Assembly: GCA_905221615.1 (NCBI GenBank)
Contig: CAJNDT010000307.1
Location: forward strand, 62,001 to 126,000
Reading direction: 5' to 3'
DNA length: 64,000 nt
Source: Symbiodinium sp. CCMP2592
Lineage: Eukaryota; Sar; Dinophyceae; Suessiales; Symbiodiniaceae
The notes under the pieces are model-generated. The model had not been told where the DNA came from. It saw only the letters and a program-made list of their open reading frames with translations, and did no database searches. Below are positions 1-23,129 of the stretch, piece after piece (within the stretch, counting starts at the first letter, position 1; each line of letters starts with the position of its first letter). A program made the position numbers and the translations under genes.

Positions 1-1
1 G

Positions 2-256
2 CCCAAGGACCTGCAGAGCTGGATTGTGCCTTTGTCGGGGAAGATTTGGAATGCTTACAATTACACCATGCTTGTGTATTGTCAGAAGAAGCTGGAACAG
101 AAGGCAAGGGGGGAAATCCTCGACGCGGTGAGCCAGATGGGTGATGATGGCCCGCCATCGGAAGATGAAGAAGAGGATGAATATGTGGATGTTTACCAGA
201 CCACTGGGAACTTCGTTCCTGATTGGGGAGTAACTGCAGATGGCTTTCAGGATTGA
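2..256 (+). CDS. Gene X, 3' end (partial, copy A)
   Basis: This is the last 84 codons of a protein whose full version ends at 8906. The sequence is identical over this stretch: a segment starting PKDLQSWIVPLSGK, then an acidic run (EDEEEDEYVDVY) and the C-terminus DWGVTADGFQD. The frame is open from base 2, so the start lies outside the window. No function is recognised. It shows that another gene X copy lies upstream, supporting a tandem array. Confidence 0.7.
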   Translation, partial: PKDLQSWIVPLSGKIWNAYNYTMLVYCQKKLEQKARGEILDAVSQMGDDGPPSEDEEEDEYVDVYQTTGNFVPDWGVTADGFQD

Positions 257-966
257 TTAGTGTCAATGATTGAGCTGAACGAGTAGGTTTATTAATTGTG
301 TTGCCAAAACAAAGCCATCTAGTGGAGCTCCTCTTCTTCATCCCATTCGTCCTTGGGCACTGGGGACTTTCACAAGGCAGAGTGCCAGAGAGTTCTCGGT
401 GTGACTAAGGCAGAGTGCCACCAAACAGTGTGGCCTGTTCAGATTCTTTTTTGTGTCGCTGTCACTAGGCAGAGTGCCGGAAAGGCAGAGTGCCAATGTG
501 AAATCGCATTTCTTGGGGCGTTTGAATTTTGTCACTTTTGCAGTCCGTCTGATCTGGCACATTTCAGCTTGCCGTTTTGGAAAACAAAGACGGTGCCTAT
601 GCATACAGTCATGTCGGCAGTAACTCGATGGATTAATTACTGTGCCTGTGAATTGATTGGTTCAACCTTGGTTTCCTGTGACAGCCCCATAAAACCTCTC
701 AGGTGCTGGTGTCCAAGGTGGTTGGCTACTATGGCAAGGCTGGAATGCATGATGCAAGTGATTGTGAGTTGTGGAAGCTGAAACGCTTGCTATCTGGCCG
801 TTAATGGGACCACGCCACGTAGTGTGTACGGACTCTAGTGACTAGTGAGTGGATGCGCAAGAATTTCATGACCTGGCCGCCATCAACATATGTGTGTTCA
901 AGATCGAGTCCCTTAGTGCTGCAGTGGTGCTTCCAGGCAGAGTGCCAGAGACAGTCGCCGAGAGCA
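257..966. other. Spacer between genes X and Y (copy A)
   Basis: About 700 bp with no supported gene. It carries the mini-element at 376, 409, 468, 484 and 936. The same spacer is present between 8907 and 9616 with only a few substitutions. Confidence 0.6.
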
Positions 967-2457
967 ATGGGAAAGTCGAGGAAGAGCGCTCGTGTGAGTG
1001 ATCAGATGATGTTCCCAATGCCGGGGGCAATGAACCCAGCACTGGGAATGAACAACCCACTGGCCATGATGAACCCTTCATGTTGCAACAGCAGCAACAG
1101 ATGCAGCAGCAGCAACAGATGCAGCAAATGCAGCAGATGCAGCAAATGCAGCAACAGCAGCAGACGGCTGCTGGGGGTGAATCAAGGCAGAGTGCCAACG
1201 ACTCCTCCTCGTCGGAATCAGAAGACCAAGAAGTGAGGAGGATACGTAAGGAAACCAAGAAGAGCAGAGCAAGGCAAGCAGCAACGATCGGGATTGATCG
1301 GCTGGCAACGTCTACGACCGATGCAGATGCAATCCCGAGAAGCGCCACGACATTGCGTTCGGTCCCTCTGGCTGCTTGTCAATCAACAGAGTATCCCTAA
1401 GGTCAGCAATGATCCCTGAACCCTCCTCCCAAAAAACCAAGCTGAGCCTTACTGACTGAGGTGAAGGTGAAAGCTCTGCTCGAGCGGGTTCATAGTGCAT
1501 GGGATGCCGCGGTCACGGCTGACCTGCCACAACAAACAGCGCTGCAGCTGCTCTTCATATTGACCAATCTGAAGCCGACCACAAAGGTCAGTGAACTCAG
1601 GATCGATATGAAATACAGCTTGCTTGGTCAGCGATGTGAGAATGCCCATACGCGTTAATCCCTCTGCGATAGCAGCAGTTGGAACCGCATAGCCAAACCG
1701 GTTCTGGGGATGGGGGTGAATATGTCTGAGCATGCTGTTGACAGGGTTGCCTTGGAATGTGGATGGCAGTCCACATGGATGACCGAGGATGTCACGACCT
1801 ATGCCAGGCGTAGAGCGAGAGCAAGGCAGTCCACTGAGACGCAGGGACGTCTCAGTTTCAATCCGAGTCCTGCTCCAGCTGCCCCGCCAACGGTTCCGCC
1901 GTCGGAAGGCAGAGTGCCAGACGTGGTCCGTTCTGGTCCTTTGCCAACGACTGCTCCTAGTTCCAATCCAAGCCAGGCTGTGGGTCGCAGCCCGGCTGGG
2001 GAACAAGGCAGAGTGCCGATTCAACAGCCGCCTGCCTCCCCTCATGCCGTTCCGGGTTCCAATGCAAGCCAGGCAACCGAAGGCAGCCAGGCTGCAGGAA
2101 GTGAACAAGACAGAGTGCCGAGGGTTGTGGAAGGCAGAGTGCCAGTTGATCGGAATGCTCCTGCCATAGCCGGCAGAGGCAGAGATCAGGCCCGATCAGG
2201 AGATCGTCATGCCTCCTGCAGAAGGGACCACTGCACCTGAAACAGTTGAGTTGCCAGGGCCAGACACCTCCACGAACAGTGACTCGACAGCTGGTGCTGA
2301 CGTGAATGCCGTTGTGCCCTTTGCGACACCCAAGTCGAAAGCCAAAGCAAAAGCCAAGGGCAAGTCCAAAGCCAAGGCCAAGTCCAAGGCCAGGGCGACG
2401 GCACCAAACACAGAGTCGCAGGACGAGGTCGCAGTCGAGGTCGATGATGAGGTCATG

Positions 2458-2530
2458 GCCGAGGCCGAGGTCGAGGCCGGGGCCGAGGTCGAGGCCGAGG
2501 TCGAGGCCGAGGTCGAGGTCGAGGGCGAGG
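2458..2530 (+). repeat. 12-bp coding minisatellite (EVEA repeat), copy A
   Basis: Tandem GAGGTCGAGGCC-type units encode alternating Glu-Val-Glu-Ala. Copy B of the duplication has one extra 12-bp unit (11124-11211). The length change is a multiple of three, so it keeps the frame. Confidence 0.8.
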
Positions 2531-2641
2531 CCGACGACAGTTTCTTCTTTGAGGAGGAGGAGGATGCTCCGAATGAGTCGAGCAGACCTGCGAAACCAGG
2601 ACATCTGTGTCATTTGCCATTCGGAGATGCACCCGGGCCAG

Positions 2642-2774
2642 GCAGGCTGGTTTCGTTTGCCTTTGGTTAATGAATCATGGATAGTGGTGCCTGTCCTGTT
2701 TGTACATTCCACTAATCCTCAGAACATTACCTCTCACATGACGTGTCTTTTTCTGTGGTTTCCCTGGAATGCAG
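2642..2774 (+). other. Intron (GC-AG) splitting the RING finger, copy A
   Basis: Removing these 133 bases joins CVICHSEMHPGQ to ALEALSCGHLFHSEC and rebuilds the RING spacing. The donor is CAG|GCAGG and the acceptor GCAG|GCA, so CAGGCA occurs at both edges. Non-GT donors followed by AG|G acceptors are known for dinoflagellate introns. The same intron is at 11323-11455. Confidence 0.75.
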
Positions 2775-3053
2775 GCATTGGAAGCGCTGTCGTGTGGCCA
2801 CCTCTTTCACAGCGAGTGTATCAATCGATACTGTGAATCGACCGGGCGGAACAAGGCCACCGCTTGCCCTCTCAAGTGTGCGAGCTCGACCTCTACGGCA
2901 AGGTTCTTTTTTGGTCCGAGGGGGTCAACGGGAAGCAATGCCCCTGTTCCTGTCGAAGATGATGTGGACGCACTCGTTCAGGAAATACAAGCTCAACTCG
3001 TTGACGACCGCACTCGTGAAGCTCCTCAGGTCAACGACCCCGTGGTGGACTGA

Positions 3054-3721
3054 TTGCGTCGACAAGGTGGCTCGGTAACAAGGCAGAGTGCCACAATAAC
3101 TGGCTCATGTGTATGTGTTGTCGGTGATGTGGCCTCGAGTCTTATTAATTTTGGAGGTGTGGCAATGCCATTGTCACAGACATGTTTCTGAAGGCGGAGT
3201 GCCATGGGTTGTAACATGTGTTCCATGATTATTATGTATTGACATGATTGTGTTGCCTTGTGTTGCATTATGCCATCAGAAATGTATGTCTCTTTGTAAT
3301 CCCAGGCGGTCTGTCGATTTCACAAGGATACTGCAGATGCCTGTGGACAAATCCGCGCCAAAGGCAGGATCCAACCTGTCCTAGAACACCAGTTGGGAGG
3401 GACCCAATAAAGGACCACGGAAGTCTGCAATGGGGTGCATCCGTGTTAAAAAAGCATATGGCCTTTTAATGGACACCATCCCCATACCGCCCCACAGGCC
3501 CTGCAAAGTCTTAGAAGACATTTGTGGCACTTGTGGCATGCCCCGGAAAAATCTTATTGAATCTTATTGAATCTTATTGAATCTTATTGGTTTATCATTT
3601 TTAAAAGGGTACCGAATCCAGATCGCCCCAAAAAATCTTATTGACTTCAACATGATCTCAGTTCAGGATCGATCAACATGCACCGCCAGCTTACCTGAAG
3701 CTGGAACTCACCGGTGCAGGC
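3054..3721. other. 3' flank of gene Y copy A
   Basis: No supported gene. It carries a mini-element at 3082, the variant GGCGGAGTGCC at 3192, and the decamer repeat at 3548-3599. The duplication ends at 3644. Confidence 0.5.
3548..3599 (+). repeat. AATCTTATTG decamer tandem repeat
   Basis: Four head-to-tail AATCTTATTG units followed by TTTATC. The same array is present in copy B and expands further at 12215-12625. The duplication boundary falls in another unit of this repeat, at 3635-3644. Confidence 0.85.
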
Positions 3722-3988
3722 ATGCAAGTGATGATGGACAGAAGATGGCTCTATGCCTGTAATGACGGCTGGGCGCGGGGGGTTGAGAATTTGACGCTGT
3801 GGGACGGGGAAGTCACCGAAGGTGAGCAACTCTTGTGGACCACGACCATGGTGAGATTCGGTTACGACGAAGATGATCCGGAGGCCTGGAATGAAGAGCG
3901 TGTGGAAGATGAGGAGGATTACAACGAGTTCGAAGAAAGGCCTGCTCCCATGGAAGACGGCGAATTCGTTGAAGTCCGAATGCCGTGA
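3722..3988 (+). CDS. Exon-like ORF, acidic, unknown
   Basis: An open frame of 88 codons preceded by an AG|G acceptor-like site. It contains a Trp/Gly-rich start (WLYACNDGWARG), then LWDGEVTEGEQLLW, an acidic stretch (DEDDPEAWNEERVEDEEDY) and the end GEFVEVRMP. It is probably one exon of a plus-strand gene between Y copy A and X. No homology is recognised. The two mini-elements that follow (3997, 4014) lie past the stop. Confidence 0.4.
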   Translation: MQVMMDRRWLYACNDGWARGVENLTLWDGEVTEGEQLLWTTTMVRFGYDEDDPEAWNEERVEDEEDYNEFEERPAPMEDGEFVEVRMP

Positions 3989-5168
3989 GAAAAAAGGGCA
4001 GAGTGCCTTAAAAGGCAGAGTGCCAAAGGCAGAGTGCCCACCATTGGACCATTCAGTGAGTGGGTTGGCCCAAATTCCAATATCAATTTAATTTTCAGGC
4101 CAGGACAGTGACGAAGGCAGAGTGCCAGGAAGGCAGAGTGCCAGGTGGGTCAGGCTTCGTCGACTGACTCTTCTCAAGTTTTTCAGTGCCGATGTCTGCT
4201 CATGTGGACTTCTGCCTGCCTTTCGCACAGCAACAGGTTATTTGTTTGTGGTGCAGGCAAACCAACAAGTCATGATCAAAGTTGTGAGTGTTTTGGAGAA
4301 GGCCTCGTCGCTGTCAGAGTAGTGCCTCCAGAAGAGCATTGCTTGCTGCAGAAGCAAAACTGTGAGTGCTGAGACTTCTGAAGACCGAGCACTTCTGAGT
4401 TCTGTTGGATGTGTTGGGTTTGCGACTGTGCTGAGAGAGTCTGAGTATGAATGAAAGTGACCATGCAAGGTTTGGCCGTCAGCTGGCGTCTCCAGACCCC
4501 AGGATTGCTGGTCATCGGTGCTGTTCTTAGCTTCCGATCATGCTGCTTCTGCGTTGCCAAATTCAACTTAGCATTCTCGGGCTTCTGAAGTGTCATGTCA
4601 TGATTGTTTTGCCTATGGCTTATGATGGTTGCTCAAATTTCAAATGTTGCTGCAGTGGTCCTTGAATCATGGCATATGGCAGATTTGAATATCAACACAG
4701 CCCTTGAATTAGGTTTCATTCGTGTGCTAAGCTCCCGATCATGCTGAGTCTGTCTGGCCCCTCAATTAAGTTAAACTCCGTGTAGCTGCTGCTTCAATAA
4801 AAGTGTCATGTCATGATTATTCTGTCGATGGAGTTGCTCAAAGTGAAGTGAGTCGTGGTCCTTGAATGATGGCATATGCATGATATTTAATGTCAATGTG
4901 AGCACAATATCAAAATATAGTTGATTTAATTTAAATTGTGTCAATTATTAGTAACTATAATCTAACAACACATTGACGTCAGAGGTAGTATATCATTTCG
5001 ACATAATAAGTAAGGCAGAGTGCCGCCTCGCCATTCATTGCAGAGTGCCTTGAGCTGGACTGAGAAGTCTGAGTGCCTGCATCTGGCTGGACAAGGCAGA
5101 GTGCCGCAATCTGGCTGGACAGGGCAGAGTGCCGCAATCTGGCTGGACAACGCACAGAGTGCCGCAGG
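3989..5168. other. Mini-element-rich spacer upstream of gene X
   Basis: No supported gene over about 1.2 kb. Mini-elements start at 3997, 4014, 4028, 4116, 4132, 5014, 5095 and 5123. The 4600-4960 stretch is AT-rich and repeats phrases such as GTCATGTCATGATT and TGATGGCATATG. It may contain the promoter and 5' UTR of gene X, but no defined promoter element was seen. Confidence 0.5.
5074..5168 (+). repeat. 28-bp minisatellite built on the mini-element
   Basis: About three to four tandem units of CTGGCTGGACAAGGCAGAG followed by TGCCGCAAT, with the last units degraded. Each unit contains one mini-element, so here the motif has been amplified as part of a larger tandem unit just upstream of the gene X start codon. 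Confidence 0.75.
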
Positions 5169-8100
5169 ATGACAGCGCCTGTGCATACGAGTTCGCTTGG
5201 TCAGGTGTTTTGGGCCAATGTGCGAGCCGGCAACATCACGGGTGAGTTTTACGAACAAGGGCTGGATGGATCCTTGCAGATGGGTGGGAGTTTTCCCTTG
5301 CCGGTCAGTAAGCCTCTAGAATGCTATGTCACTGGCTACGGTGAGGTCCGCCTGTGGGGCGGGCAAGCATTCAAACAGTGCAAGCTTACATGGAGATACG
5401 TCGGTCATGGCCAGAATCGGGACACAATGCTTGCGAAGATCCCACAGCCGTGGGTCATCGACATTCTGAAGCTTCTGCGCGAGCTCAGGATTCCTCGGTC
5501 TGAAAGGCAGAGTGCCGAAGTCCTCAAAGCCTCGGAAGTCGCAGCAGATGCCCTGAAACTGGTGGATTCTATTCCTGAAGATGCTCTGGACTTCGATCAT
5601 CCGACAGATCAGGTGCACCTCGCGATCAAGCTGCACAGGAAACTCGCAAAGGACGAAAAAGAGTGTGGAAACCAATATGACTGGCATTTTCTGAAATCTC
5701 GAACGTTCACAACCCACTGGCAATCGTTTCCTGTCCCGCTCGCTTTCGACTTGAAAACCTTGGTCACCCATGCCGCGGGCGTAGTGGCACCGCGGATGAG
5801 AAAATCGGTGCTCGTCACAGAAGCCAAAGGCAACGGGACGACTGTGGGAGCCTTCCTCAACGCGAGGTTTTCCGACCCAAGCAAGTTACTGGGAACTAAG
5901 TTCCCAGAGAAAGAGACCATGCTGATCCTCTTCAAGCTGTTCAACTATATCATGAAGCTACAAGTGCATACCTTTAGGCAGGAAGGGTGTCTTCTGGGGG
6001 ACCTCCACGAGGACGAGGATAACATTACTGTCATGGGAGGCAGAGTGCCGGACCACAAAGGCAGAGTGCCAGTGGGGGCGGAGAATTTGACGTTTGCCTT
6101 GGTGGACTGCTCCGGTTGCCTACCAGTTATGGCTGTTCCCGCAAGAAAGATGAAGGGTCACCTCAACTGCTTTCTGAGCTTGTGGGCCATTCCCTCAAAC
6201 CACAGCGCCACCGTCTCCGCGTACGCGTCAGAGGTCTGGAAGAAGATGCTTGCCGCTGGCGAAAAATTCAAATCTGACTATGGACCGAATAAGTGGAGAA
6301 CTGCTGAAATGGTGGGCGATCTGTACAAGTTGTGCAAGAATCTGGAAGCAAAGTTCGAGCAGGGTCTGGACTTGAGCCAGCAATGCCAGCAAATGAGGGT
6401 GGAGGCAACAAGGGCAGTAATGAGCAGACTTCAGCCGCAGGTACTTGCGCCGCCGAATCCTCCGCCACGTCAGTGTTTGGATTCGACACCTCCCTGGGAT
6501 CCCCCTGGATCTGCGACTGCAAAAGCCAAAGGGATGAAAGGAGGAGTGCCAGTAGAAGGCAGAGTGCCAGGCAAAGGCAAAGCAGTACTTCATCCTGATG
6601 GGACTCCTCCCAGGGACCGCCGGCATTTGCATCAACCGGGTTAGCAAAAGGCGAGGCCTCGCCCTCCGCCTCCTGACGGGCCTCCTCCGTTTCAGCAGCG
6701 AGCAAGACCCGTGCAGGAGTGGGAACCACTACCAAGGGCGCCGGTGCAACCAGCTCAGCCTCCTCCTGGCCACCAGCAGCAACAACATCGCTGGGGCAGA
6801 ACGGCCAGAATGCCCGTCATCTAGGACGAATACGATGCCTGGCATGACGATGAGCCGAATCCCGAGCCGATTCCCCCGGCCAAGAGTGCCAGAGCCGATG
6901 GGTCGGCAAAGCAAGGCAGAGTGCCAGAGCCGATGGGTCCCCCGCCGACAAAGCAAGGCATGCCAGAGCCGAATCCCGAGCCGAATCCCCCGCCAAGAGT
7001 GCCAGAGCCGATGGGTCCCCCGCCGGCAAAGCAAGGCAGAGTGCCAGATCCCGAGCCGATGGGTCCCCCGCCGGCAAAGCAGCCTCCTGCCAAAAGGAAA
7101 TTCGGCGACGGACAGCCTGTGCCTGTTGGTGCCAAGCCACAGTTTATGTCGGCAAGTGCTCCTGCTGAACTGACGGAACAGCAGACGATGGACGAGCAGG
7201 ATTTCGCCAAGGAACTTGCCGAGTATGCTGACGATATGGCAAGAGGCTCCAATTTCGTTCCGCAGGGCCGACGCGCTGAGCCGGCCTGGGTGGCAAAGGC
7301 CCAGGGCTTGAAAAGCAAGGGCGACGCCGTCCCGCTCGGGAAAGCAGCTTTTCGCCCAAAAGGGCAAGCCTGCCGGAAAGGGCCACAAAGGCAGAGTGCC
7401 AGTGGAGGACAATATCCCTACTCACCTTGTTGGAAAGGGCCGTCCACTCACCTTGTTGGAAAGGGCCGTCCAGGCGAAGCTCATCCTGCTTTTTTGCGGC
7501 ATATGAAGACGGAGAAGGGCGGAATATGGTTGGACGCCGAGGAGGAGGTGGAAGCCGAGGAGGAGGATGACACTTTGGTTGATGTTGTGGTGGAAGAGGA
7601 GGAGTCCGTGCAAGGTACGTCGGACGATGACTTTGAATTTGTCGAGATTGTGGTGCAGGATGAGCAACCGCCGCTTGAGATGGAGGCGGAGCCCGAGGAG
7701 GATGAGCATGCGTGCGCCACGGCTGCCTCGTTAGACCCGGATCGCTTGGACGAGAATGAGGGTGACAGCCAAGCAACAATGGTACTAGGGGACCATCTCC
7801 GAGAGGAGCAAGATGAGCCGATGCCTCCTGTACCGGAGGCCCGGGTGACTCAGAGCGAGGACCCTGTCGTCGCCAAGGTCATGCACGAGCTGGGGGCTAT
7901 GAATGTGGACCCGAACCCGAAGGCTGCCGCAAACCCGAAGAGTGCGACTGCGCCAGTGCCTGGAGAGGTGAAGCCTTTCTTGGAAGCGGAGGAGGACCTC
8001 GGAATTACGGACCCCCAAGGCAGAGTGCCAAGGGGTCAAAACAAGATCAAGGTTCCAGCCGAGCTTTTGCAGCCAGAGACTGAGGAGGAGAAAACTCTCA

Positions 8101-8906
8101 GAGCGTTGCGGGGAATGCTGCCATGCAGTCACAGGGAGGTGACGACTTCGAAGGTGGGCCGCCTCGCCAATCGGGCACGTATGTCGAGACCGGTGCCACA
8201 AGATCGGCCGTTCAACCCCCACCACAACGATCGGAAGTTCAACAGCAAGACTACGACTGTCATCACCCAGCTGCTCATGGCTGTCCATGAGATCACAGTC
8301 CGAGAATGCGGGTTGAATTCCTTGCCAATGGAGAAGAAGGAAATGACGTGGAATGACTTTCGGTCGAAGGGCTCGAAAACTGTGGTTGTCTGGGATCTGT
8401 TGTTTGACAAGGGCATGAAGGAGATTCCAGAAAACTCTGAGCCTGGGGACTGGCACCTGTGGCTTCAGAGGGAAACTGGGGTGGCGGTCATTGAGCAGAT
8501 TCTCCAGTGCATGTTCAATGTCACTCGGCCAGTTCATGGCCGTGATCGAGTCAAGGGAAAGGAGCTGACATACTGGCACTGGTGGAAGGCCTCCGAGAAA
8601 CTCTGTGAGTTGTATACGACGGAAGATGTCATCTCGAAGGTCAAATTCCCGCCCAAGGACCTGCAGAGCTGGATTGTGCCTTTGTCGGGGAAGATTTGGA
8701 ATGCTTACAATTACACCATGCTTGTGTATTGTCAGAAGAAGCTGGAACAGAAGGCAAGGGGGGAAATCCTCGACGCGGTGAGCCAGATGGGTGATGATGG
8801 CCCGCCATCGGAAGATGAAGAAGAGGATGAATATGTGGATGTTTACCAGACCACTGGGAACTTCGTTCCTGATTGGGGAGTAACTGCAGATGGCTTTCAG
8901 GATTGA
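5169..8906 (+). CDS. Gene X: 1245-residue unknown protein interrupted by two TAG codons
   Basis: One reading frame runs from ATG 5169 to TGA 8904-8906, broken only by TAG at 6642-6644 and 6822-6824. Both sides of each TAG, and the stretch between them, keep coding character in the same frame (Pro/Gln/Arg-rich: QKARPRPPPDGPPPF, then DEYDAWHDDEP). Residues about 1-420 look globular (LTWRYVGHGQNRD, IPQPWVIDILKLL). Residues about 420-800 are a Pro-rich linker with PEPMGPPP repeats and GRVP insertions, followed by acidic segments. Residues about 970-1245 are again globular (YWHWWKASEKLCELY), with an acidic tail. No family is recognised. The TAGs could be nonsense mutations (CAG to TAG is one step) or could lie in small introns. 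Confidence 0.6.
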
Positions 8907-9616
8907 TTAGTGTCAATGATTGAGCTGAACGAGTAGGTTTATTAATTGTGTTGCCAAAACAAAGCCATCTAGTGGACCTCCTCTTCTTCATCCCATTCGT
9001 CCTTGGGCACTGGGGACTTTCACAAGGCAGAGTGCCAGAGAGTTCTCGGTGTGACTAAGGCAGAGTGCCACCAAACAGTGTGGCCTGTTCAGATTCTTTT
9101 TTGTGTCGCTGTCACTAGGCAGAGTGCCGGAAAGGCAGAGTGCCAATGTGAAATCGCATTTCTTGGGGCGTTTGAATGTTGTCACTTTTGCAGTCCGTCT
9201 GATCTGGCACATTTCAGCTTGCCGTTTTGGAAAACAAAGACGATGCCTATGCATACAGTCATGTCGGCAGTAACTCGATGGATTAATTACTGTGCCTGTG
9301 AATTGATTGGTTCAACCTTGGTTTCCTGTGACAGCCCCATAAAACCTTTCAGGTGCTGGCGTCCAAGGTGGTTGGCTACTATGGCAAGGCTGGAATGCAT
9401 GATGCAAGTGATTGTGAGTTGTGGAAGCTGAAACGCTTGCTATCTGGCCGTTGATGGGACCATGCCACGTAGTGTGTACGGACTCTAGTGACTAGTGAGT
9501 GGATGCGCAAGAATTTCTTGACCTGGCCGCAATCAACATATGTGTGTTCAAGATCGAGTCCCTTAGTGCTGCAGTGGTGCTTCCAGGCAGAGTGCCAGAG
9601 ACAGTCGCCGAGAGCA

Positions 9617-11734
9617 ATGGGAAAGTCGAGGAAGAGCGCTCGTGTGAGTGATCAGATGATGTTCCCAATGCCGGGGGCAATGAACCCAGCAATGGGAATG
9701 AACAACCCACTGGCCATGATGAACCCTTTCATGTTGCAACAGCAGCAACAGATGCAGCAGCAGCAACAGATGCAGCAAATGCAGCAGATGCAGCAAATGC
9801 AGCAACAGCAGCAGACGGCTGCTGGGGGTGAATCAAGGCAGAGTGCCAACGACTCCTCCTCGTCGGAATCAGAAGACCAAGAAGTGAGGAGGATACGTAA
9901 GGAAACCAAGAAGAGCAGAGCAAGGCAAGCAGCAACGATCGGGATTGATCGGCTGGCAACGTCTACGACCGATGCAGATGCAATCCCGAGAAGCGCCACG
10001 ACATTGCGTTCGGTCCCTCTGGCTGCTTGTCAATCAACAGAGTATCCCTAAGGTCAGCAATGATCCCTGAACCCTCCTCCCAAAAAACCAAGCTGAGCCT
10101 TACTGACTGAGGTGAAGGTGAAAGCTCTGCTCGAGCGGGTTCATAGTGCATGGGATGCCGCGGTCACGGCTGACCTGCCACAACAAACAGCGCTGCAGCT
10201 GCTCTTCATATTGACCAATCTGAAGCCGACCACAAAGGTCAGTGAACTCAGGATCGATATGAAATACAGCTTGCTTGGTCAGCGATGTGAGAATGCCCAT
10301 ACGCGTCAATCCCTCTGCGATAGCAGCAGTTGGAACCGCATAGCCAAACCGGTTCTGGGATGGGGGTGAATATGTCTGAGCATGCTGTTGACAGGGTTGC
10401 CTTGGAATGTGGATGGCAGTCCACATGGATGACCGAGGATGTCACGACCTATGCCAGGCGTAGAGCGAGAGCAAGGCAGTCCACTGAGACGCAGGGACGT
10501 CTCAGTTTCAATCCGAGTCCTGCTCCAGCTGCCCCGCCAACGGTTCCTCCGTCGGAAGGCAGAGTGCCAGACGCGGTCCGTTCTGGTCCTTTGCCAACGA
10601 TGCTCCTAGTTCCAATCCAAGCCAGGCTGTGGGTCGCAGCCCGGCTGGGGAACAAGGCAGAGTGCCGATTCAACAGCCGCCTGCCTCCCCTCATGCCGTT
10701 CCGGGTTCCAATGCAAGCCAGGCAACCGAAGGCAGCCAGGCTGCAGGAAGTGAACAAGACAGAGTGCCGAGGGTTGTGGAAGGCAGAGTGCCAGTTGATG
10801 GGAATGCTCCTGCCATGGATGACGATGGTCTAGCGCCGGCAGAGGCAGAGATCAGGCCCGATCAGGAGATCGTCATGCCTCCTGCAGAAGTGACCACTGC
10901 ACCTCAAACAGTTGAGTTGCCAGGGCCAGACACCTCCACGAACAGTGACTCGACAGCTGGTGCTGACGTGAATGCCGTTGTGCCCTTTGCGACACCCAAG
11001 TCGAAAGCCAAAGCAAAAGCCAAGGGCAAGTCGAAAGCCAAGGCCAAGTCCAAGGCCAGGGCGACGGCACCAAACACAGAGTCGCAGGACGAGGTCGCAG
11101 TCGAGGTCGATGATGAGGTCATGGCCGAGGCCGAGGTCGAGGCCGGGGCCGAGGTCGAGGCCGAGGTCGAGGCCGAGGTCGAGGCCGAGGTCGAGGTCGA
11201 GGGCGAGGCCGACGACAGTTTCTTCTTTGAGGAGGAGGAGGAGGATGCTCCGAATGAGTCGAGCAGACCTGCGAAACCAGGACATCTGTGTCATTTGCCA
11301 TTCGGAGATGCACCCGGGCCAGGCAGGCTGGTTTCGTTTGCCTTTGGTTAATGAATCATGGATAGTGGTGCCTGTCCTGTTTGTACATTCCACTAATCCT
11401 CAGAACATTACCTCTCACATGACGTGTCTTTTTCTGTGGTTTCCCTGGAATGCAGGCATTGGAAGCGCTGTCGTGTGGCCACCTCTTTCACAGCGAGTGT
11501 ATCAATCGATACTGTGAATCGACCGGGCGGAACAAGGCCACCGCTTGCCCTCTCAAGTGTGCGAGCTCGACCTCTACGGCAAGGTTCTTTTTTGGTCCGA
11601 GGGGGTCAACGGGAAGCAATGCCCCTGTTCCTGTCGAAGATGATGTGGACGCACTCGTTCAGGAAATACAAGCTCAACTCGTTGACGACCGCACTCGTGA
11701 AGCTCCTCAGGTCAACGACCCCGTGGTGGACTGA
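9617..11734 (+). CDS. Gene Y copy B: RING-finger protein
   Basis: Same architecture as copy A: MGKSRKSARVSD start, uninterrupted Met/Gln-rich tract and Ser/Glu segment to 10051, helical exon near 10110-10240, Pro/Ser linker with GRVP insertions, KAKAKGKSKAK run, EVEA acidic repeat, then RING split by the intron at 11323-11455 and ending at 11734. This copy keeps the base lost in copy A at 1079 and the 17 bp lost near 2166, but lacks one base near 10602 (in the linker) and one near 10368. The RING frame differs by one from the acidic frame in both copies, so an unseen short intron or shift must lie at about 11230-11275. A ubiquitin-ligase role is inferred only. Confidence 0.55.
11124..11211 (+). 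repeat. 12-bp coding minisatellite (EVEA repeat), copy B
   Basis: Same unit as at 2458-2530 with one additional GAGGTCGAGGCC unit. A GAG codon in the following Glu run also differs (+3 bp). Confidence 0.8.
11323..11455 (+). other. Intron (GC-AG) splitting the RING finger, copy B
   Basis: The same 133 bases and CAG|GCAGG ... GCAG|GCA edges as at 2642-2774. Both RING halves stay intact on either side. Confidence 0.75.
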
Positions 11735-12214
11735 TTGCGTCGACAAGGTGGCTCGGTAACAAGGCAGAGTGCCACAATAACTGGCTCATGTGTATGTGTT
11801 GTCGGTGATGTGGCCTCGAGTCTTATTAATTTTGGAGGTGTGGCAATGCCATGTTTCTGAAGGCGGAGTGCCATGGGTTGTAACATGTGTTCCATGATTA
11901 TTATGTATTGACATGATTGTGTTGCCTTGTGTTGCATTATGCCATCAGAAATGTATGTCTCTTTGTAATCCCAGGCGGTCTGTCGATTTCACAAGGATAC
12001 TGCAGATGCCTGTGGACAAATCCGCGCCAAAGGCAGGATCCAACCTGTCCTAGAACACCAGTTGGGAGGGACCCAATAAAGGACCACGGAAGTCTGCAAT
12101 GGGGTGCATCCGTGTTAAAAAAGCATATGGCCTTTTAATGGACACCATCCCCATACCGCCCCCACAGGCCCTGCAAAGTCTTAGAAGACATTTGTGGCAC
12201 TTGTGGCATGCCCC

Positions 12215-12625
12215 GGAAAAATCTTATTGAATCTTATTGAATCTTATTGAATCTTATTGGTTTATCATTTTTAAAAGGGTACCGAATCCAGATCGCCCCA
12301 AAAAATCTTATTGAATCTTATTGAACCTTAGAAGACATTTGCAGAATTGTGGCCTACCCCGAAAAAATCTTATTGAATCTTATTGAATCTTATTGAATCT
12401 TATCGGTTTTACAAGGGACACCGCCTCCAGCTCGCCCAAAAAGATCTTATTGAATCTTAGAAGACATTTGCAGAATTGTGGACTACCCGAAAAAATCTTA
12501 TTGAATCTTAGTGTTCGGGCCATCACGTTTTGAAGGCACACCGACCCTGTACCAGACAATTGCACACATGTAACATCCCCTCCCAAAAGTCTTGTTGGAG
12601 CTTATTGAATCTTGGGAGCTAGTTA
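12215..12625 (+). repeat. AATCTTATTG decamer array, expanded
   Basis: Clusters of AATCTTATTG(A) units at about 12221-12260, 12303-12330, 12367-12405, 12445-12460 and 12495-12510. They are separated by repeated non-decamer phrases such as TTAGAAGACATTTGCAGAA, ATTGTGG and CCCGAAAAAATC. The larger unit (decamers plus spacer) is therefore itself tandem. It lies at the breakpoint of the segmental duplication. Confidence 0.75.
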
Positions 12626-12844
12626 TACAATATCGAATCCCATTGAATCGGCACAGTCCAGCTAACCCAACCAAATCCCTACGAGTAGTAACACATCTTA
12701 TGATTAAGCATAAACTAGGTGGCACTCTGCCTTGAAGTACCTTTAAACCATGGACCTCCTTAAAACCTAAAACCCTGAAGCTCTTTTAAACCCTAAACCG
12801 TTACTGTGTGTGGTAAGTTTACACACAGACCTAGGTATATGTAT

Positions 12845-12885
12845 AACATACATACATACATATATATATATGTATGTATGTATGG
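12845..12885. repeat. Palindromic AT microsatellite
   Basis: (CATA)n then (TA)n then (TGTA)n. The two tetranucleotide arms are reverse complements, so the tract can fold into a cruciform or hairpin. Confidence 0.8.
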
Positions 12886-13134
12886 ATTATATGCATACAC
12901 TTATTATGGGGCATACTGCTTTGGAACATTAAACTACATCATCTATTAGCACCCTGTCTTCAAATATGTGTTAATCTAATGATCATGTGCATAAATGCTT
13001 GTGTCGTCCAGTGGAACATATTGCATGTGGTATTGAAACGAACATGGCAATCAACATCTAGTACCTGTTCGTACTATCCAACACACATAGTTGCTTGCAG
13101 CTTGTGGGATCAAAGATATTTAAAGTTAAGCACC

Positions 13135-15459
13135 ATGGCACCGAAGCCGAAGGCCAAGCCGGCAGCAGCAGGGAGGATCGGCCGGGTGAGGACTCCGAAG
13201 CGACGGCCTCGTAGAGTGCCGCCAACCGGTGTGAATGGCATTGGTGAAGAAGGCGGTGGGGCGGAAGGCAGAGTGCCAGGGCCACCCATGGGTCCGCCGC
13301 CGCCAACACCTGTGAATCGGCCACCTTTCCCAAGACCTCCCGCCCCTGCGCGACATGAGTTTGAGATTGCCCAAGCTGTGGCAGAAGCGTTGGACATTAT
13401 GGAGACCCCGATCATGATCAACTTCGAGCCGGATGTGGTTACTGTTAGGGAGGGCCGCAGTGTTCTGGTCACCCTTCAGAACTTGACACCGGAAGAGATG
13501 CAACGTCGGCAGTTGGAACGGCGAATTTGTGCCATGTGTTTCAATGCTCCAGACAACCCGCCGCCACCAATAGTGCCGCCAAGGCCGATGCTTGAAAATG
13601 GCTATCCTCGCCCTAACAATAACGCCAACAGTGGAGCTGCTGAAGGCAGAGTGCCAGAAGGCAGAGTGCCAGATGAGTTCGAAGGTGGAGTTCGTGATCG
13701 AATTTTTTTTAGTTTGGAATCTCGCCCGGATGCCTGGTTGACTGGGCCAGCTCGTGCCGAAGGTGATTCACGCCTCAGACTCAGATGTGATTGAGGAAGG
13801 TGTTCGAGATGTTCGTCTTGGTGAGCTTGGAGGGCGGGGTCGTTTGGGGATTGATCATGGACACATCTCAGAAGAAGACCCGGACTGGAGTCAGCGCGAC
13901 TCAGCGGATGGAGCCCCCTCAGATGTGATGGAGGAAGGTGAGGAGTCAGACTCTGAGGCTTCTTCCACTGATGCTGTTTGTCAGATGGGAGACTGATTAT
14001 TTTAACTCACCAGCAAAGACTGCATATCTTAGAAGGCAGAGTGCCAATGCAGAATCTGGCTGACAAGTGGCTGCCACCTCGGTGGTCTCGCAATCGTCGA
14101 GTGATATGGATGGACTGCTGTGTGCGGTACCAGAAAAACGAGAATCGAGTGAGGGTCTGCCAGTGCTGTGTTTGATTGCTTGAGCATGAAGTCATGGTCT
14201 GCAACAACTATGCCATGTGTGAATTTCAACAAGTGATGTCGTCATGTCTGTCTCATCCTTGTGTTGTGATGGATCAATCGACTCACAAGTGTGTCAACTG
14301 CTGCATGTGCTGGTTCACAATTACGTTGTTAATTCGAACACCCTTGAGGTTGAGGTGTTACACTTCGGGGTTAGGACAGAGTGCCATGCACAGTGCAATT
14401 CGGAGTGCCATTTCTGCAGCAGAAGCGGAACCGACTGAAACAAGAAGAAGACTGTTAGCAGACATTCAGCAGCAGTTTGAGGCAAACATCGCACTGGAGA
14501 AGAGATTCATGGCCATTTCGAGAGGACAGGATGTTCTGCGCCTTTGTGAAGTTGACCCGTCGCTTCTGGAGTTCCATCATGAAGGTCCTTATGAAGTTCT
14601 GCCTGAGTGCAACTTTGATGTGATTCTTGAAGCCAGTGGGTTTTCCTGGATGATATCAATCTGGCAACAGATGTTGTCAGAAACTTTTCCCATCATGACT
14701 TCGTGGCCATGGAAGAAACAGATGAGATTCCTCATCAACTTTTGTCATTGGAAGCGGAACATAAGGCAGAGTGCCAGGTTCCACTTCCTGGAGATCTTTG
14801 CCGGGCAGGGCAACCTCAGTCGGGAGATGCTCCGTGCTGGCTGGCAGGGGCTAGCCCTGGACATCAGGTACGGCCCAGATCATGATATTCTTTCTCTGAG
14901 AGGACTTCGCCTGGCTGTCAATGCTGTGTGTCAAACACACAAACACGGCCTGGTGTGGTTTGGAACTCCATGCTCTTCTTTCGTCCAACTCTGTAAACAC
15001 AGTACTGGAAGGGCCATTGCCAATGACTGGATGGGAGAACCTGAGCGATCGCTGTCATGTGAAGAAGGCAATCGTTTCATGTATGTGACACTGCTGTTGA
15101 CTTTGCTCGCGGCTTTGAATGACAACCGGTTTGTGATCGAGCAGCCTTGCTCCAGCATGCTGTTCGACATTCCAATCGTCGCTCGTGTCATGGGAATGAT
15201 CCAGGCTATGAAGGTCAAAACCTATGGTGGTGCCTTTGGCCAGCCCATCCTGAAGCTGCTTCAACTGTGGAGCAACTGTCAGCACATCAATGGCATGTGT
15301 CGCAGCTATCCTTCCCATGTCAGAGGAAGTGCTGGTTGCGTTGATCGAGATGGTGACAAGTTCACCGGTCGTGCTGAAGATCTTCAGGTGTCAGAGGAGT
15401 ACACCGTGGAGTTCGGCAAGGCTGTTGCCTGTCATATGATGAGCGATATCCCAACATGA
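13135..15459 (+). CDS. Gene Z: cytosine-C5-methyltransferase-like protein, multi-exon
   Basis: Starts MAPKPKAKPAAAG in a CACCATGG context. Residues 1-220 are basic then Pro-rich with GRVP insertions (13267, 13645, 13660). An acidic exon follows in another frame (about 13754-13996), then a Trp/Arg-rich exon (about 14040-14150, WLPPRWSRNRR), then a domain to 15459. That domain resembles the Rossmann fold of C5 methyltransferases: FLEIFAGQGNLS (motif I, about 14783), FGTPCSSF (motif IV with Pro-Cys, about 14958), IEQPCSSML (motif VI-like Glu, about 15135) and a TYGGAFG segment. A mini-element inserts RQSA just before motif I (14765). DNA or RNA methylation is plausible because the Cys and Glu are present, but it is not shown. 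Exon joins are not resolved. Confidence 0.6.
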
Positions 15460-16010
15460 ATTGTAGGTGAAGGCAGAGTGCCAAAAAGGCAGAGTGCCAT
15501 AATTTTCTAGAGTTAAATGAGCTTGCTTCATCTTTAGACAGTCTGTCTTGTTGGTATTCTGCTTTCCAATGTTGGGACTGGGTTGAGCCCTGGAACCCCT
15601 TCGGTCCCTCCATTAGGTGCCGATGAAAATCATCGCCGCCTTGTGGAAGGATCTGAGTGATCCGAGCTGGTGCAGCTGTGCAATGAAAATGCAGAGAGCT
15701 TCAGCCAGTCCGTGTTCAGATGTGTTTGTCGGTATTGTCTCAGTTCATATGCCGCTGTCGTGCAGGTGGCAATGACCTGGCTGGTGTCTCGACCTCCAGT
15801 TGCAGGCATCGGTGGCCTGTGTTAATCATTCCACGTGGTTGTCAGTGCCATCTGGGATTGTTTCCTGTCTCAAGCTCGAGTGACATGATGTGGCTGCTGA
15901 CATGTCATCGTGAGTCTTTGGGTTGATTTCTTAAGAATTCAACGTGTTGTGAACTGGGGCTTGTTACACAAGTGCAGGCGTGTGTCAGTATTTAGTAAGA
16001 TTCAAGTACA
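15460..16010. other. 3' flank or intron after gene Z
   Basis: No supported coding region. Two mini-elements start at 15472 and 15488, right after the gene Z stop. The rest is unremarkable. Confidence 0.5.
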
Positions 16011-16721
16011 GTGTTGCTTTGGAGGATTTCGGTGATGCTTCTCAAACTGTGGGTCATGCTATTGCTCCGGGATGGGCAATTGCTGAACTTGGAAAATGAT
16101 GCAAAACTTCCAGCGAGAGCAGCTTGGCTCTCACAGGGCGAACTGTGGTGGCGTCTGGACTTGTTTTTCGATGAGAGCAACAGGAACGGCTCAGAACGTC
16201 GACAGTACCACAAATGGTACCTCTTCTTCAGTGATCAACTCCGGAAGACCCCCTTGGCTGCGAACTGGGAGTCACATGTGCAAAGTCAAAAAGGCAGAGT
16301 GCCAAACCCTGATGCTGTGCAGGAGGATGTGGCATCTTCCATAGCCTTGGCCCGATTCATGTTGCAAGCATCCTTCGACACAAGGACAGATGCCCACAGG
16401 GAATGGTACAAGAGCAAACTGAAGGATGCTATGGTACGTGTGTGTGAAACTATCAGTGATGAGCCTCTGGTCATGCAGTTGGATGAAGGCAGAGTGTCAT
16501 GGTTTCTTCTATCAGCTGAGTTGGTGTCAGGCTTTGCCGCTTGGATGATGAAGTGGCTGGCAGGCAACACGTCCCGATCTTTGCGTGAGCTTTGGTGCGA
16601 ACGGACTGCGATGCCTTGTCAAGTTCTAAGGTGTCACTATAAGAGCTGTGAGCAAGACCGTGTAAAGTGCAAGGGAAGGGGGCACGCCACGCGTCCCTCG
16701 TCTCTAGGAGTAGGCTTGTGA
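16011..16721 (+). CDS. Exon-like ORF with mini-elements, unknown
   Basis: A 236-codon open frame; coding-like character runs from about residue 25 to 200 (WWRLDLFFDESNRN, YHKWYLFFSDQLRK, then helical segments and WFLLSAELVSGFAAWMMKW). A GRVP insertion lies at 16293 and a decayed GRVS at about 16484. It is probably the last exon of a plus-strand gene in the mini-element block; whether it belongs to gene Z is unclear. No family is recognised. Confidence 0.4.
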   Translation: MLLWRISVMLLKLWVMLLLRDGQLLNLENDAKLPARAAWLSQGELWWRLDLFFDESNRNGSERRQYHKWYLFFSDQLRKTPLAANWESHVQSQKGRVPNPDAVQEDVASSIALARFMLQASFDTRTDAHREWYKSKLKDAMVRVCETISDEPLVMQLDEGRVSWFLLSAELVSGFAAWMMKWLAGNTSRSLRELWCERTAMPCQVLRCHYKSCEQDRVKCKGRGHATRPSSLGVGL

Positions 16722-17139
16722 GCGGCTTGTGGTAGTGCTACGCACACCGCAATGCCTATCCATCCTTTCAGTATGACCGCCCATGCAACGTTTGGCTCAA
16801 GAATGAGCACAAGCTCTAGAAAGCATTGCCCATAGCTAAAGTGCTATAATCTTCTGTGATTCTCCGAGTGGACAGAGCTTTCCCGTGCACAGACGATCCA
16901 CCGCCGGCCGTGAGTGTGCAAAACGAGCGAACGTTGGATCTGCCTGCATAGGAGTGCGCGTGTGGAAGTGGAAGTAACGGTGATCCAGTCTGTAGAAGGC
17001 AACCACGCCAACAGTCAATACAGCTCTTTGTGGGGTGAGCGACAGAGAACATTACCAGGATCAAATCCCCACGCAGGTTATCAGCCGTACGCGGCTCTGC
17101 CTTTCTGCAGCAAAGACTACTTGATCTACTACGACCACA
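16722..17139 (+). other. Leader region of the copia element
   Basis: No gene. The mini-element block ends about 400 bp before this point. It holds TTTGGCTCAAG at 16791-16801, matching the last 11 bases of the conserved dinoflagellate spliced leader, and GGTTATCAGCC at about 17077, which weakly resembles a methionine-tRNA primer-binding site. No LTR pair was found. Confidence 0.35.
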
Positions 17140-20100
17140 ATGAACTCGGGATCAAGTCAAGATACGACAATGACTTTCGGTGCCGATGTGGCAGCGCCAG
17201 CCGTTGGTGAGTCAACAGCTGATGACACAGTGGTGCAATCCGTTGATAGCTCCACGGAAGATGACAAAGGTCAATCTTCTGCGCTTGCCATTGCAAAGGC
17301 AGTTCCCAAAGCAAAAGCAAAGAGTCTACCAAGAGCATCCACGCCTTCGCGTCCAACATCCACAGGTTCGAGGACGAGCAAGGCTCCAGAACGACGATCC
17401 GAAGCGTCTGGTTTTCAGGCACCTCGGACCCCGTCGAGGGCAAAGGACAAGGGAGTGAAGACTTTGGAAAAGAAGCCGCGACCATCATCTTCGAGAAGCT
17501 CTTCAGCACGATCTAGGACTTCGGCCACTCGTGGACGCGACAAGTCCATGACATGGAATCGAATGGTTACCAATCAACCACGCGAAGCTGACGATCTGGA
17601 TATGACTCTGGACACGATTCCTGCACGGGGTGACGCTTCGTCGGTGACTACACCAGCCATAGCCGATGGTCCGAATGCCTACCAGGGACTGACAATTCCG
17701 CAACAGTTTGAAGCATCGAATCTTGCACAGCAGATGTACTATCGAAGTCAGGTGCAGGAGTACGAAGGTGTTGTCCAGACCCTGATGGAGAAGATCAAGG
17801 AGATGCAGCAAGAGGATGAAGGATCTGGAATTCGCATCGAAGAATTGGAACGACAACGTGACCATGCATGCTTAGCCATGAGGCACATCAACAATGTCAA
17901 TCAGGAGATGAAGCGAGACTATGAAACAGCTTTGTTTCGCATGGATGAACAGAACTCTGCTCAACAACGTCAAGCACACGCCGTTGCCGAGGAACTGGCT
18001 CAACAGCTACATGTGTTTCGCACGGAAGCAGCCACTAACTTTGTGCAGTTGGAGGCAAGAGCGCAGGGCGATGGTGAGCTTATGGCACGTGAGTATGAGC
18101 ATCTGACTCATGAACTTCATGAACAAGCCAGAGAGAACTTGTTCCTCCGGTCGAACACAGCAAGTTCGGAACAAGCCTTGCAAGCGATGCAGGAACGATT
18201 CCACCTGGTCAGGAATCAGGAGTTGCGAGCCATAAACGAGATTCAAGGGCTAGCTGGAAACAGCGCAGCCATTGATCAAGAGCGACTTCGGCTTCGCGAA
18301 CGTCTTGGTGAGGAGGAAGAGTACCGCAAAATGGCTGTGAGGAGGATGCAAGATGCAGAGGACCGACTCCATCAGAATGAGGATCATGCAAGGCGCGCAT
18401 TGCCCACCTTGCACGACGAGCTGAGTGAACTCAGGAAAACGCTCAAAGCACAAGAAGATCTTCAAGCGAGGACACGCAGCGAATTGGAGGCAGCACGGAA
18501 CTCCAACTACCATGGCGGAGTGACACGGCCTTCGAGCATGCCCATGTCTTCGAGGACTACTGAGTCTGGCTGGGAGCACGTAGGAAAGGACGTAGTGCCT
18601 GCATTTTCCGTAGGAGGTGAGGTGCGATCCCCTGAAATACGGTCCCCAAGTCAAATTAGTCCAGTCGCCAAAGAGAAGTTCGCATTCTCAGAATCGGACA
18701 AGGACAAGAACCTTGCGATGGATGGCATCCCATTTACCGGTGGAAACTTCTTCACTGGCAACATCAAAGGTGAGGTAAATAAATCCTACGCAACGCCAAT
18801 CGTGGCGGATGCAATGCCCGAGCACCACGTGCCAGGCATTAGCAGTCCAGCACATGCGCGTTCCACGCCCAGTGCAGCCACTCTGTTTGGCATACCAAGC
18901 GGATTTCATGGACAAAGTGATGCGGCAGCTGTACGTGACCGACAGCTACGTGAACTCTTGGAGGATCGCGGGATGTTGGGATCGAAGTCCACAGCATCTG
19001 CCAGCTCTTCAAGACCTGTTGGTATCGACGGCATTATCGCATCTATGAGGGGCAACGACCCCAATGGTGCCCCAAAGGCTACCCCTGTCACCTACGATGC
19101 TTCCATCCATGAGGCAAGGAGACGTCAGATCGAGAAAGAGGTCGCGGAACAGTACGAAGAGAAGATTGCTGATCTGCGAAGCGAAGTACTCAAGGCCCAG
19201 AAAGCCGAACAACGTCTCAGAGCTGATCGTGATGAGTGGAGATTATTCGCTGAAACGATGCAGGAAGACAATGGAGACGATGACGGTGATGAAGCTGGCG
19301 ATGAGAACGAAGATGGAGAGCGAGACGAAGGTGCCGGCACAGGGTATGACCCTCCAGATTCGCCTGATGATGACGATGATGATAAGAAGAAGAACGGTGG
19401 AGGCAAACCTGAACCGGATCCTGACCCTCATGCGCGTGATCCTGACGGAGACGCAGATCCTGAGGTCACGGAGGTGAGAATTTCCAGGAGAGAGGCCGAT
19501 AAAGTGACAGTCCCTCCATGGCCTGTTCTCACTCACCTGAACAACTGGCCGTCAGTATGCACGGCGAATGTCCTAGGAGCGTCAGCCGACCCAAATCATG
19601 AGGACTGGATGTTGTGGCTGGCACCAGCGTTCAATCCATTCCCTGATGTCGAAGCACTGAACGATTCAGGACACAAGAAGTTCAAGAGCATAGACGTCAA
19701 ATTGGGAGTCTCCATGGTCGCAATGCTACGCGCTGGTGGTGACAAATCCGCTGATCTGTACCTGGAGGTGAACCGGAAGGCCAACGATTACATCAGCAGG
19801 CCCGAAGGGAAGATCATCAAAGGACGACAAATCATTGCGATGATGTATGAAAGTTTTCGAACGCATGACCGTCTCGACATGATCATCACTCTCGAGTACT
19901 TGGTGAAGCTCCAGTACCAAGGCGACAACAAACTTCATACGTTCAAGCAGACATGGTTGGAAGTTCTTGGACGGATGAGACCAGAAGACATACCATCCAA
20001 GACAGCTCTCCGTGATTGCTTGCACAGCAAGATCAAGGACTCGCCCGCAATGAAGATGGATTTGGGCATGCACTATGACCACTTGCCCTACAACCACGAA

Positions 20101-21843: not shown

Positions 21844-22948
21844 AAGAAGTACCAGAGTCCGAGGCAGGACGATCGCCGGACGATGAAGGAGCAGGAGTGG
21901 GTGAAGTTCTACTGGACGGTGACGATGAGGTGATCATTGATGTGGAAGGCGACGGTGCGCCGAGCCGCAAGGCCAGAGTCGGAACACTGAAAGCCGAAGC
22001 AAAGACGTTGGCACATCTGTGCACTCATCGCTACCGCAATCCATATTGCGAATCGCGCATACGCGCGAAGATGAAGCACTTGCGGACACAACGAGGTGCA
22101 TTTCAACGTGTGATCAAACACTGGGGGGATCTCGTAACGTTCGACTTCCTCGATATGCGCAAAGGCGCCGAAGCAGGCATCGGACTCGATGACGGAGCAC
22201 GTGAAGTTCTAGTCATCAGAGACATCGCCACCAAAATGATCGCAGCGATTCCCACGGCCTCAAGGAATACTGACGAGGTTGTCATGGCCATCAGACGCTT
22301 AATGGGGAGACGCAAGATTCATATGGCGTACAGTGATGAAGCACCAGAGTTCGATTCAGCCATGGCGCAGTTGAAGATCGTGATAGATCATTCCCTTCCA
22401 GGGAAACCCAGTAACAATTCACTCGCTGAACGATCAAATCAAGAAGTGATCAACACGGTCGCCGCATCCATGCTACACGCCGGATTACCCGCCCAATACT
22501 GGTCCTTTGCGCTGAATTGCGTGATGCAGAACCTAAACATTGAAGATGTGGAGGGCGATGGTGATTCAGCATGGAAACGAATGACTGGAAAGGACTTCGA
22601 GGGAAAAGCCATACCATTTGGGGCCAAAGTCTTCTTCAAGCCGACGGATACAAGGCCGAAGACATATGGCAACAAGTTCGATCCAAAGGGGATCCCAGGC
22701 ATTTTCGCCGGATACATCATCACTGCTGGTCAAGGATGGTCCAAGAAGTATCGCGTATGGGATATGAAGGAGTTTGCCAATGCGAACTTGTCGATGGACG
22801 CATCTGTTCCCAGGAAGTTGATGAGACCGTACGAGACAGAGGTTGTCTACTTCCCAGAGGAGATAACATTTCCCCTGAAAGCTGAGTACGAAAGGATGAA
22901 CTCGACCATTGAGGGACTCACCGACAGGATCCTACGTCGCATATTGCG
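17140..22948 (+). mobile_element. Ty1/copia retrotransposon, 5' part (gag-protease-integrase)
   Basis: Two consecutive frames encode structural, protease and integrase domains in the copia order. Similarity ends at about 22940, where a palindromic GCGTATACGC repeat begins, and no RT follows. A fragment like the integrase-RT linker lies 17 kb away at 39887-40971. No LTRs or target-site duplications were identified. Confidence 0.85.
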
Positions 22949-22997: not shown

Positions 22998-23050
22998 TAT
23001 ACGCTTGCGTATACGCTGCGTATACGCTGCGTATACGCTGCGTATATACA
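22980..23050. repeat. Tandem palindromic GCGTATACGC repeat
   Basis: Four close units of (T)GCGTATACGC(T), each a perfect 10-bp palindrome, begin where copia coding similarity stops. They are followed by a TATATAC tail. Confidence 0.8.
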
Positions 23051-23129
23051 CTATGTGCTTGGGTATCATGCGCATTGCATGCTTGCAATTTGCACGTGGT
23101 GGCATATAGGTGCCAGCTCAATATGGCAT

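Follow-up and report, generated by a model that had tools for sequence, protein, structure and literature searches.

Why should one exact 11-bp word occur 45 times in a single block of a dinoflagellate genome, nearly always on the same strand? The question is raised by a stretch of 64,000 nucleotides from Symbiodinium sp. CCMP2592 (positions 62001-126000 of contig CAJNDT010000307.1, here C307; assembly of 1.098 Gb in 5383 contigs), which we refer to as the window and in which an initial annotation had pointed out the word GGCAGAGTGCC. Our results indicate that the motif almost certainly belongs to a giant transposon with terminal inverted repeats (TIRs), and that it probably has a function at the level of the nucleic acid.

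The motif and the element that carries it

Exact matching finds 45 copies of GGCAGAGTGCC in the window, 44 on the plus strand and one on the minus strand (12721), with the first at 376 and the last at 16303. This recount agrees with the initial annotation, including the absence of the word from the rest of the window, and the strand bias (44:1) and the confinement to one block that it had claimed are real. Through a tandem duplication, 10 of the 44 plus copies duplicate 10 others, which leaves 34 distinct plus sites and the reversed one. Dinucleotide shuffles of the window (n = 100) contain 0.06 matches on average, and none of the 100 reaches 45; when up to one mismatch is allowed, the window has 54 matches compared to a shuffle mean of 2.07 and a maximum of 7. 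Three of the nine additional one-mismatch matches lie past 16303, and one of these (16488) is still within the element. Thirty shuffled versions of the word itself give no exact match in the element sequences of contigs C1, C4 and C307, where the real word is found in 91 distinct plus contexts. The dinucleotide shuffles and the zero matches of the shuffled words rule out an origin by chance or base composition, and a linker or contaminant is ruled out by the presence of the word at homologous places in many copies of the element and in relatives in public data. The near-palindrome with a GAG centre stands as first described, but its length does not: the core is 11 bp rather than 12 bp long, and the favoured context is AAGGCAGAGTGCCAG. 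Among 97 distinct contexts, A is preferred at positions -2 (88%), -1 (93%) and +1 (73%) and G at +2 (55%), with no clear preference further out on either side.

The 14-mer AAGGCAGAGTGCCA occurs 12,746 times genome-wide (6232 and 6514 on the two strands), i.e., thousands-fold above its reversed control (3 = 0 + 3). The strand totals are about equal, as expected because copies of the element lie in both orientations, and it is within each of three element regions that the bias persists, the ratio of sense to reversed copies along the element being 54:10 on C4, 105:11 on C1 and 120:1 on C307. Of the two outcomes that the initial annotation had named together as refuting it, equal density in both orientations is seen genome-wide, but a count at the expected frequency is not. 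Within the 264,000 bases of C1, C4 and C307 regions compared, all 301 copies of the motif, counting both strands, fall within the 113,730 bp of the element and none in the 150,270 bp outside. A hairpin-mobilised micro-element, as suggested in the initial annotation, would move independently and have its copies spread through host DNA, and the suggestion is not supported on this count. The first 100 matches listed for AAGGCAGAGTGCCA comprise 74 on the 4.0-Mb C1 followed by 26 on C4; among the matches listed, all 74 on C1 are within one 41-kb stretch inside the element.

The element itself is recognised as segments that end abruptly and have unrelated sequence on either side (C4:80577-104487 and C1:1146663-1190172); these segments are 98.3-99.7% identical across five long blocks. 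It measures 23.9 kb on C4 as assembled, including a gap of 100 N, and 43.5 kb on C1, where a 14.8-kb tandem duplication accounts for the greater length; on C307 it starts twice, at 15958 and 51049. The ends in C1 and C4 are imperfect TIRs of ~50 bp, and the same 3' end is found in C422 and C462. Target site duplications (TSDs) of 5 bp were found in all four copies for which both ends were read (CTAGA, TTAAA, TAGTA and TATAT, the last two lying in simple repeats). Of five fetched stretches, three ended short of a 3' end. All 40 matches to the 105-bp 5' end that were scored, from 646 candidates, are 100% identical, the 20 fetched 5' ends all start at the same base, each in different flanks, and across 1.25 kb these 20 copies diverge from C4 by 0.1-5.7%. 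Shared ends, different flanks and 5-bp duplications place the block in a transposon, i.e., it is the interior of a recently active giant TIR transposon. The similarity of the window copy to the C1 copy ends at 16595, and the window copy is therefore cut short on its 3' side. An apparent deletion in C4 coincides with the 100 N and was taken as an assembly gap, and a suspicion that other copies carry different cargo was dropped after comparison with C1.

Each copy of the element holds from 54 (C4) to 105 (C1) motifs on the gene-sense strand. The motif is absent from the first 680 bp in 20 of 20 5' ends, and an array of nine copies lies within ~1.3 kb of the 3' end of the C4 element, pointing inward, so that motifs converge near 22.6 kb of that copy. 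Nine 94-bp telomere-like units (CCCTAAA variants) occupy positions 22679-23423 of the C4 element, near its 3' end. Several insertion flanks (L161, L162, L164) are also telomere-like in appearance, perhaps reflecting a target preference. Two pairs of 5' ends stand face to face, ~11 kb apart at C91:509175(+)/520497(-) and ~32 kb apart at C469:717756(+)/750176(-); each pair may represent a copy with 5'-type ends on both sides, or else one insertion nested in another.

Reading frame, conservation and turnover

In the C4 element 40 of the 54 sense copies lie in open reading frames (ORFs) of at least 150 amino acids, in all three phases, and 14 lie outside, which bears out the earlier observation that exons and spacers carry the motif alike. 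One ORF of the window, P0002, reads it in two frames, as RQSA and GRVP, and in database proteins it is seen as GRVP, RQSA or KAEC. TIR-bearing introners with 4-bp TSDs have been reported for Symbiodinium microadriaticum (PMC9860276, in the part of the article drawn on here). As there described they are likewise DNA elements with TIRs and TSDs in a related alga, but they are short and become introns, whereas the present element is tens of kilobases long, carries genes and has 5-bp TSDs, and its motif stays in coding frames instead of lying in introns that are spliced out. Excision footprints of introners were also considered, and no intron-bounded pair could be seen by eye among the half motifs of the block.

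Relatives of the encoded proteins extend the comparison over longer distances; one related protein (P0014) carries the label Symbiodinium sp. CCMP2592. Nine relatives of P0002 were found at 48-53% identity, one of them representing 207 sequences; at one site they retain ERQSA, which P0031 has as EGQSA, and those that cover the linkers have GRVP in the same linkers in differing numbers. Three of them are frame-shifted alleles of one stretch, which reads QEGRVPEPAGPPPG in P0026, RRQSARACWTST in P0029 and TKKAECRSLL in P0030. Under the assumption that the alleles share the same DNA at that stretch, P0026 and P0029 fix it as CAAGAAGGCAGAGTGCC, a second pair fixes GAAGGC[AC]GAGTGCC, and all three frames read together fix GAAGGCAGAGTGCC, at a protein identity of only ~50%. 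Since GRV plus CC has 96 possible codings and the three frames agree, what is kept in relatives is, on this back-translation, the nucleotide word and not the peptide. The P0001 family has 11 relatives, including P0040 from EukProt, and six of them (P0034, P0036, P0037, P0038, P0040 and P0042) share RQSA at the corresponding position; P0041 is frame-shifted at this site, P0043 lacks coverage there and the distant P0044 is poorly aligned. P0034 and P0041 together fix the DNA as AAGGCAGAGTGCCAGG, within a stretch that is well conserved in any case. The transposase-like family has one, two or three GRVP units at one place, and the peptide is missing from this place in its distant members P0016-P0018 (32-41% identity to P0006). 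The number and places of motifs in the linkers drift while the word itself persists.

Constraint between element copies was assessed at gapless sites defined from either sequence, with the expectation taken from GC-matched words without CpG. In older copies, i.e., four C307 pieces compared to C1 at a background divergence of 3.6-4.3%, 113 of 114 motif sites are identical compared to 91.1 expected, a figure that overstates the number of independent sites as the C307 pieces are kin. The largest C307 piece alone has 43 of 43 (34.6 expected), and all 37 queries together have 265 of 274 (241.3 expected). Counted in one direction, identical sites number 110/111 (83.8 expected), 39/41 (31.0), 114/114 (86.5), 78/81 (57.8) and 63/64 (60.9). 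Gain or loss of the motif between copies often involves entire units of 14-16 bp, and the site at window position 6957 lacks just the central GAG (GGCATGCC).

Such unit-wise changes call to mind a passive repeat, i.e., a functionless word that slippage, local tandem duplication and shuffling have multiplied within the element, its sameness due to recent spread. Many copies of the motif do lie in local tandem units (14-17-bp pairs and units of 28 bp, ~40 bp and 94 bp), the number of units differs between copies, and young copies are without sign of constraint. However, the 97 contexts have nothing in common past -2 and +2, so that most of them are not slippage products, the identical word is found in relatives whose proteins are ~50% identical, sites common to old copies are undecayed, and passive spread leaves the placement on one strand unexplained. 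Taken together, we consider a passive origin rather unlikely.

Candidate readers of the motif

A density that is kept while sites drift, the indifference to coding frame and a direction that matches the genes together point to a tag whose sense strand is read, whether as RNA or as DNA. Of the two the transcript is favoured, as strand bias would not be expected of a near-palindromic site in DNA; an RNA-level signal was among the suggestions of the initial annotation. The explanation we tentatively prefer, with less than even confidence, is that the motif is an element-owned, directional self-recognition tag on the sense strand, most likely within the transcripts of the element. The sense RNA GGCA-GAG-UGCC would fold as a small hairpin after AA (computed energy -2.9 kcal/mol for the core and -4.4 kcal/mol with flanks), its reader would be a trans-acting protein encoded by either the element or the host, and selection would act on the density of tags and not on any single site. 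Candidate benefits to the element include export, stability, translation and escape from silencing.

Several observations weigh against a selected RNA tag. The predicted hairpin has little stability, and compensatory changes, which would support an RNA structure, were not seen. On C4, 10 of the 64 motif copies are reversed, nine of them in one array with one per unit of the 94-bp telomere-like repeats near the 3' end; the tenth is the counterpart of window position 12721, in partly similar sequence, and one or two events may account for the reversed copies. The kinship of the C307 pieces noted above belongs here too, as do the young copies: C4 and C1, 0.9% apart, keep 63 of 68 sites where 65.3 are expected and thus exhibit no constraint, L171 keeps 4 of 6 (4.5 expected) and L178 6 of 7 (6.5 expected), and one of the one-directional comparisons gives 97/103, exactly at its expectation of 97.0. 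In addition, 19 one-mismatch contexts are found alongside the 97 exact ones, i.e., some old sites have decayed, and in the P0001 family the motif peptide has decayed in P0035 (IRQRA) and P0039 (IRQGA).

The first functional alternative is a DNA mark, because the element carries a methyltransferase-like gene. The structure model of the window ORF P0001 suggests that one protein of the element has a C5-DNA-methyltransferase-like fold, and one copy of the motif, at 14765 and read IRQSA, lies just ahead of its FAGQG motif. This protein might recognise and methylate the near-palindrome, and repair linked to methylation might create or maintain the sites, or else the mark might identify or shield the DNA of the element. 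The precedent is HIP1 of cyanobacteria, a very frequent exact short palindrome across genes and spacers in genomes where a methyltransferase gene is present (PMC4390886, in the portion of that source consulted). HIP1 and the alternate HIPs, as that portion presents them, resemble the motif as frequent, exact, short (near-)palindromes that occur in genes and in spacers alike, a methyltransferase gene (here a candidate one) being present as well, and a frequency far over expectation applies here too (12,746 compared to 3 for the reversed control). In contrast, HIP1 is perfectly palindromic, shows no strand bias and extends across a whole bacterial genome, whereas here the centre is an asymmetric GAG, the site is strand-biased, and it is confined to one eukaryotic mobile element; a symmetric site leaves the ratio of 54:10 in C4 unexplained. 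The P0001 model has a predicted local distance difference test score (pLDDT) of 62 only and no Foldseek match at E 0.001 or better; as the fold alignment re-examined Foldseek's own list, other families are still possible. We regard a HIP1-like mark as unlikely.

Dense directional words that are read along DNA offer another comparison. DNA uptake sequences, Chi and KOPS are short, exact and dense in coding and noncoding DNA, the latter two are strand-biased, and all belong to bacterial chromosomes with known reader machines. The motif is likewise short, exact and dense but is confined to one element. A directional DNA signal of this kind, by analogy read along the axis of the element by a machine for recombination, replication, excision or uptake, would account for a motif that is directional, blind to coding and kept by density instead of by site, and the inward-facing array at the 3' end, with motifs converging near 22.6 kb, would suit it. 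Against it, a single reversed copy lies at 14.7 kb of the C4 element, and the joins of the tandem duplication in the window lie near AATCTTATTG repeats and not near motifs, an observation on which the motif was also rejected as a duplication breakpoint. On balance this explanation appears improbable.

Repeated words inside a TIR element also occur in En/Spm- or Ac-like transposons, as short subterminal repeats. The motifs could, by the same token, be binding sites for a transposase or accessory protein, which would agree with the nine-copy array near one end and with the presence of a long transposase-like candidate ORF (962 amino acids in C1). The motif differs from subterminal repeats in that it fills the body and the genes of the element, on one strand, and is absent beside the 5' TIR, as seen in the first 680 bp of all 20 5' ends. 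Searches of Pfam, PHROGs and PDB sequences gave no match to the candidate ORF, and the model of its relative is too poor for a structure search (pLDDT 43). Binding sites of this type are therefore the least probable of these alternatives, and we consider them very unlikely.

Other features of the window and known systems

Table 1. Positions of the element, its motifs and its genes in the window
Feature	Position	Strand	Basis
Inner part of the giant TIR element; copy begins upstream at C307:51049-51050	1..16595	+	blastn of C307 against C1 and C4, 94-95% identity across long blocks
Sense copies of GGCAGAGTGCC (44; 34 distinct sites)	376..16303	+	exact matching; duplicates via tandem repeat
Sole reversed motif copy, within noncoding telomere-like DNA; has counterparts in both C1 and C4	12721..12731	-	exact matching
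Tandem duplication inside the element, first unit	1..3650	+	repeat spacing 8649-8681
Tandem duplication inside the element, second unit	8651..12320	+	repeat spacing 8649-8681
RING-type gene: CVICHSE 2606, SCGHLFHSEC 2790; putative intervening intron; second copy 11471	2606..2881	+	pattern by eye
ORF P0002; contains the motif in two frames, RQSA and GRVP	5073..6644	+	ORF translation
ORF P0003; continuous with the P0002 ORF in the C4 and C1 copies (1293 amino acids)	6825..8906	+	ORF comparison
ORF from the ATG of P0004; motif as GRVP three times	13135..13794	+	ORF translation
ORF P0001, predicted C5-DNA-methyltransferase-like fold; FAGQG 14785-14811, PC 14959-14979, IEQP 15133-15156	14176..15459	+	structure model, motifs
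Start of a further element ORF (354 amino acids in C1), broken where similarity ends	15999..16595	+	ORF and blastn

The features of the element in the window are collected in Table 1. Runs of AATCTTATTG decamers lie at the joins of the tandem units (window 3549-3600 and 12220-12520). After the element, Ty1/copia-like frames (17125-22997), from which the motif is absent, match a CCCH finger above the cut-off and an aspartyl protease, an integrase and an SH3-like domain below it. Another short iterated word is found at 30937-31667, where a 23-bp repeat with AAATCACGGCAGCGGGG forms two clusters on a tandem period, and short tandem arrays with units of ~118 bp and ~88 bp occur at 35533-36008 and 58441-58616. 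An identical 110-bp direct repeat (41114-41223 and 46077-46186, 4963 bp apart) surrounds several plus-strand ORFs and is possibly a small element of the long terminal repeat type.

Small palindromic repeats inside protein-coding genes have been described before in Rickettsia palindromic elements and other small bacterial repeats, which are ~100 bp or longer and occur genome-wide. The present motif shares the location within coding genes but is 11-15 bp long and is owned by one element. Among large repeated elements of protist genomes, Polinton-like viruses and other endogenous DNA viruses are found in dinoflagellates (PMC10120064, in the section of that report consulted). The element resembles them, so far as that section goes, in being large and repeated in such a genome; it differs in that no capsid, DNA polymerase B or packaging ATPase match was found with Pfam and PHROGs among the ORFs scanned, dedicated viral models not being included in the scan, and in that no relative of the P0002 family was confirmed in IMG/VR. 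AAGGCAGAGTGCCA matches at least 80 loci in IMG/VR, with one match each, which we read as chance. We share the view of the initial annotation that the motif fits no familiar repeat class, and to our knowledge no eukaryotic mobile element is known with such an iterated directional word; none was found in the mostly open-licence literature, where occurrences of GGCAGAGTGCC include none in a paper on algae, as judged by title. Nor was an element of tens of kilobases with a 5-bp TSD, a C5-methyltransferase-like gene and no transposase family recognised in the open-licence literature.

Chi, KOPS, uptake words and HIP1 are familiar bacterial examples of iterated words that label DNA as self or guide a molecular machine. 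It is quite possible, if short of an even chance, that here a giant eukaryotic transposon carries its own address, i.e., a directional 11-bp word every few hundred bases, the density of which has been selected over long evolution and by which a dedicated reader separates the element from host DNA or RNA. If true, a transposon that keeps a word through its own coding sequence in every frame would represent a new route of recognition for a selfish element, and it would point to a reader in dinoflagellates, a group in which little is understood of gene control or of mobile elements.

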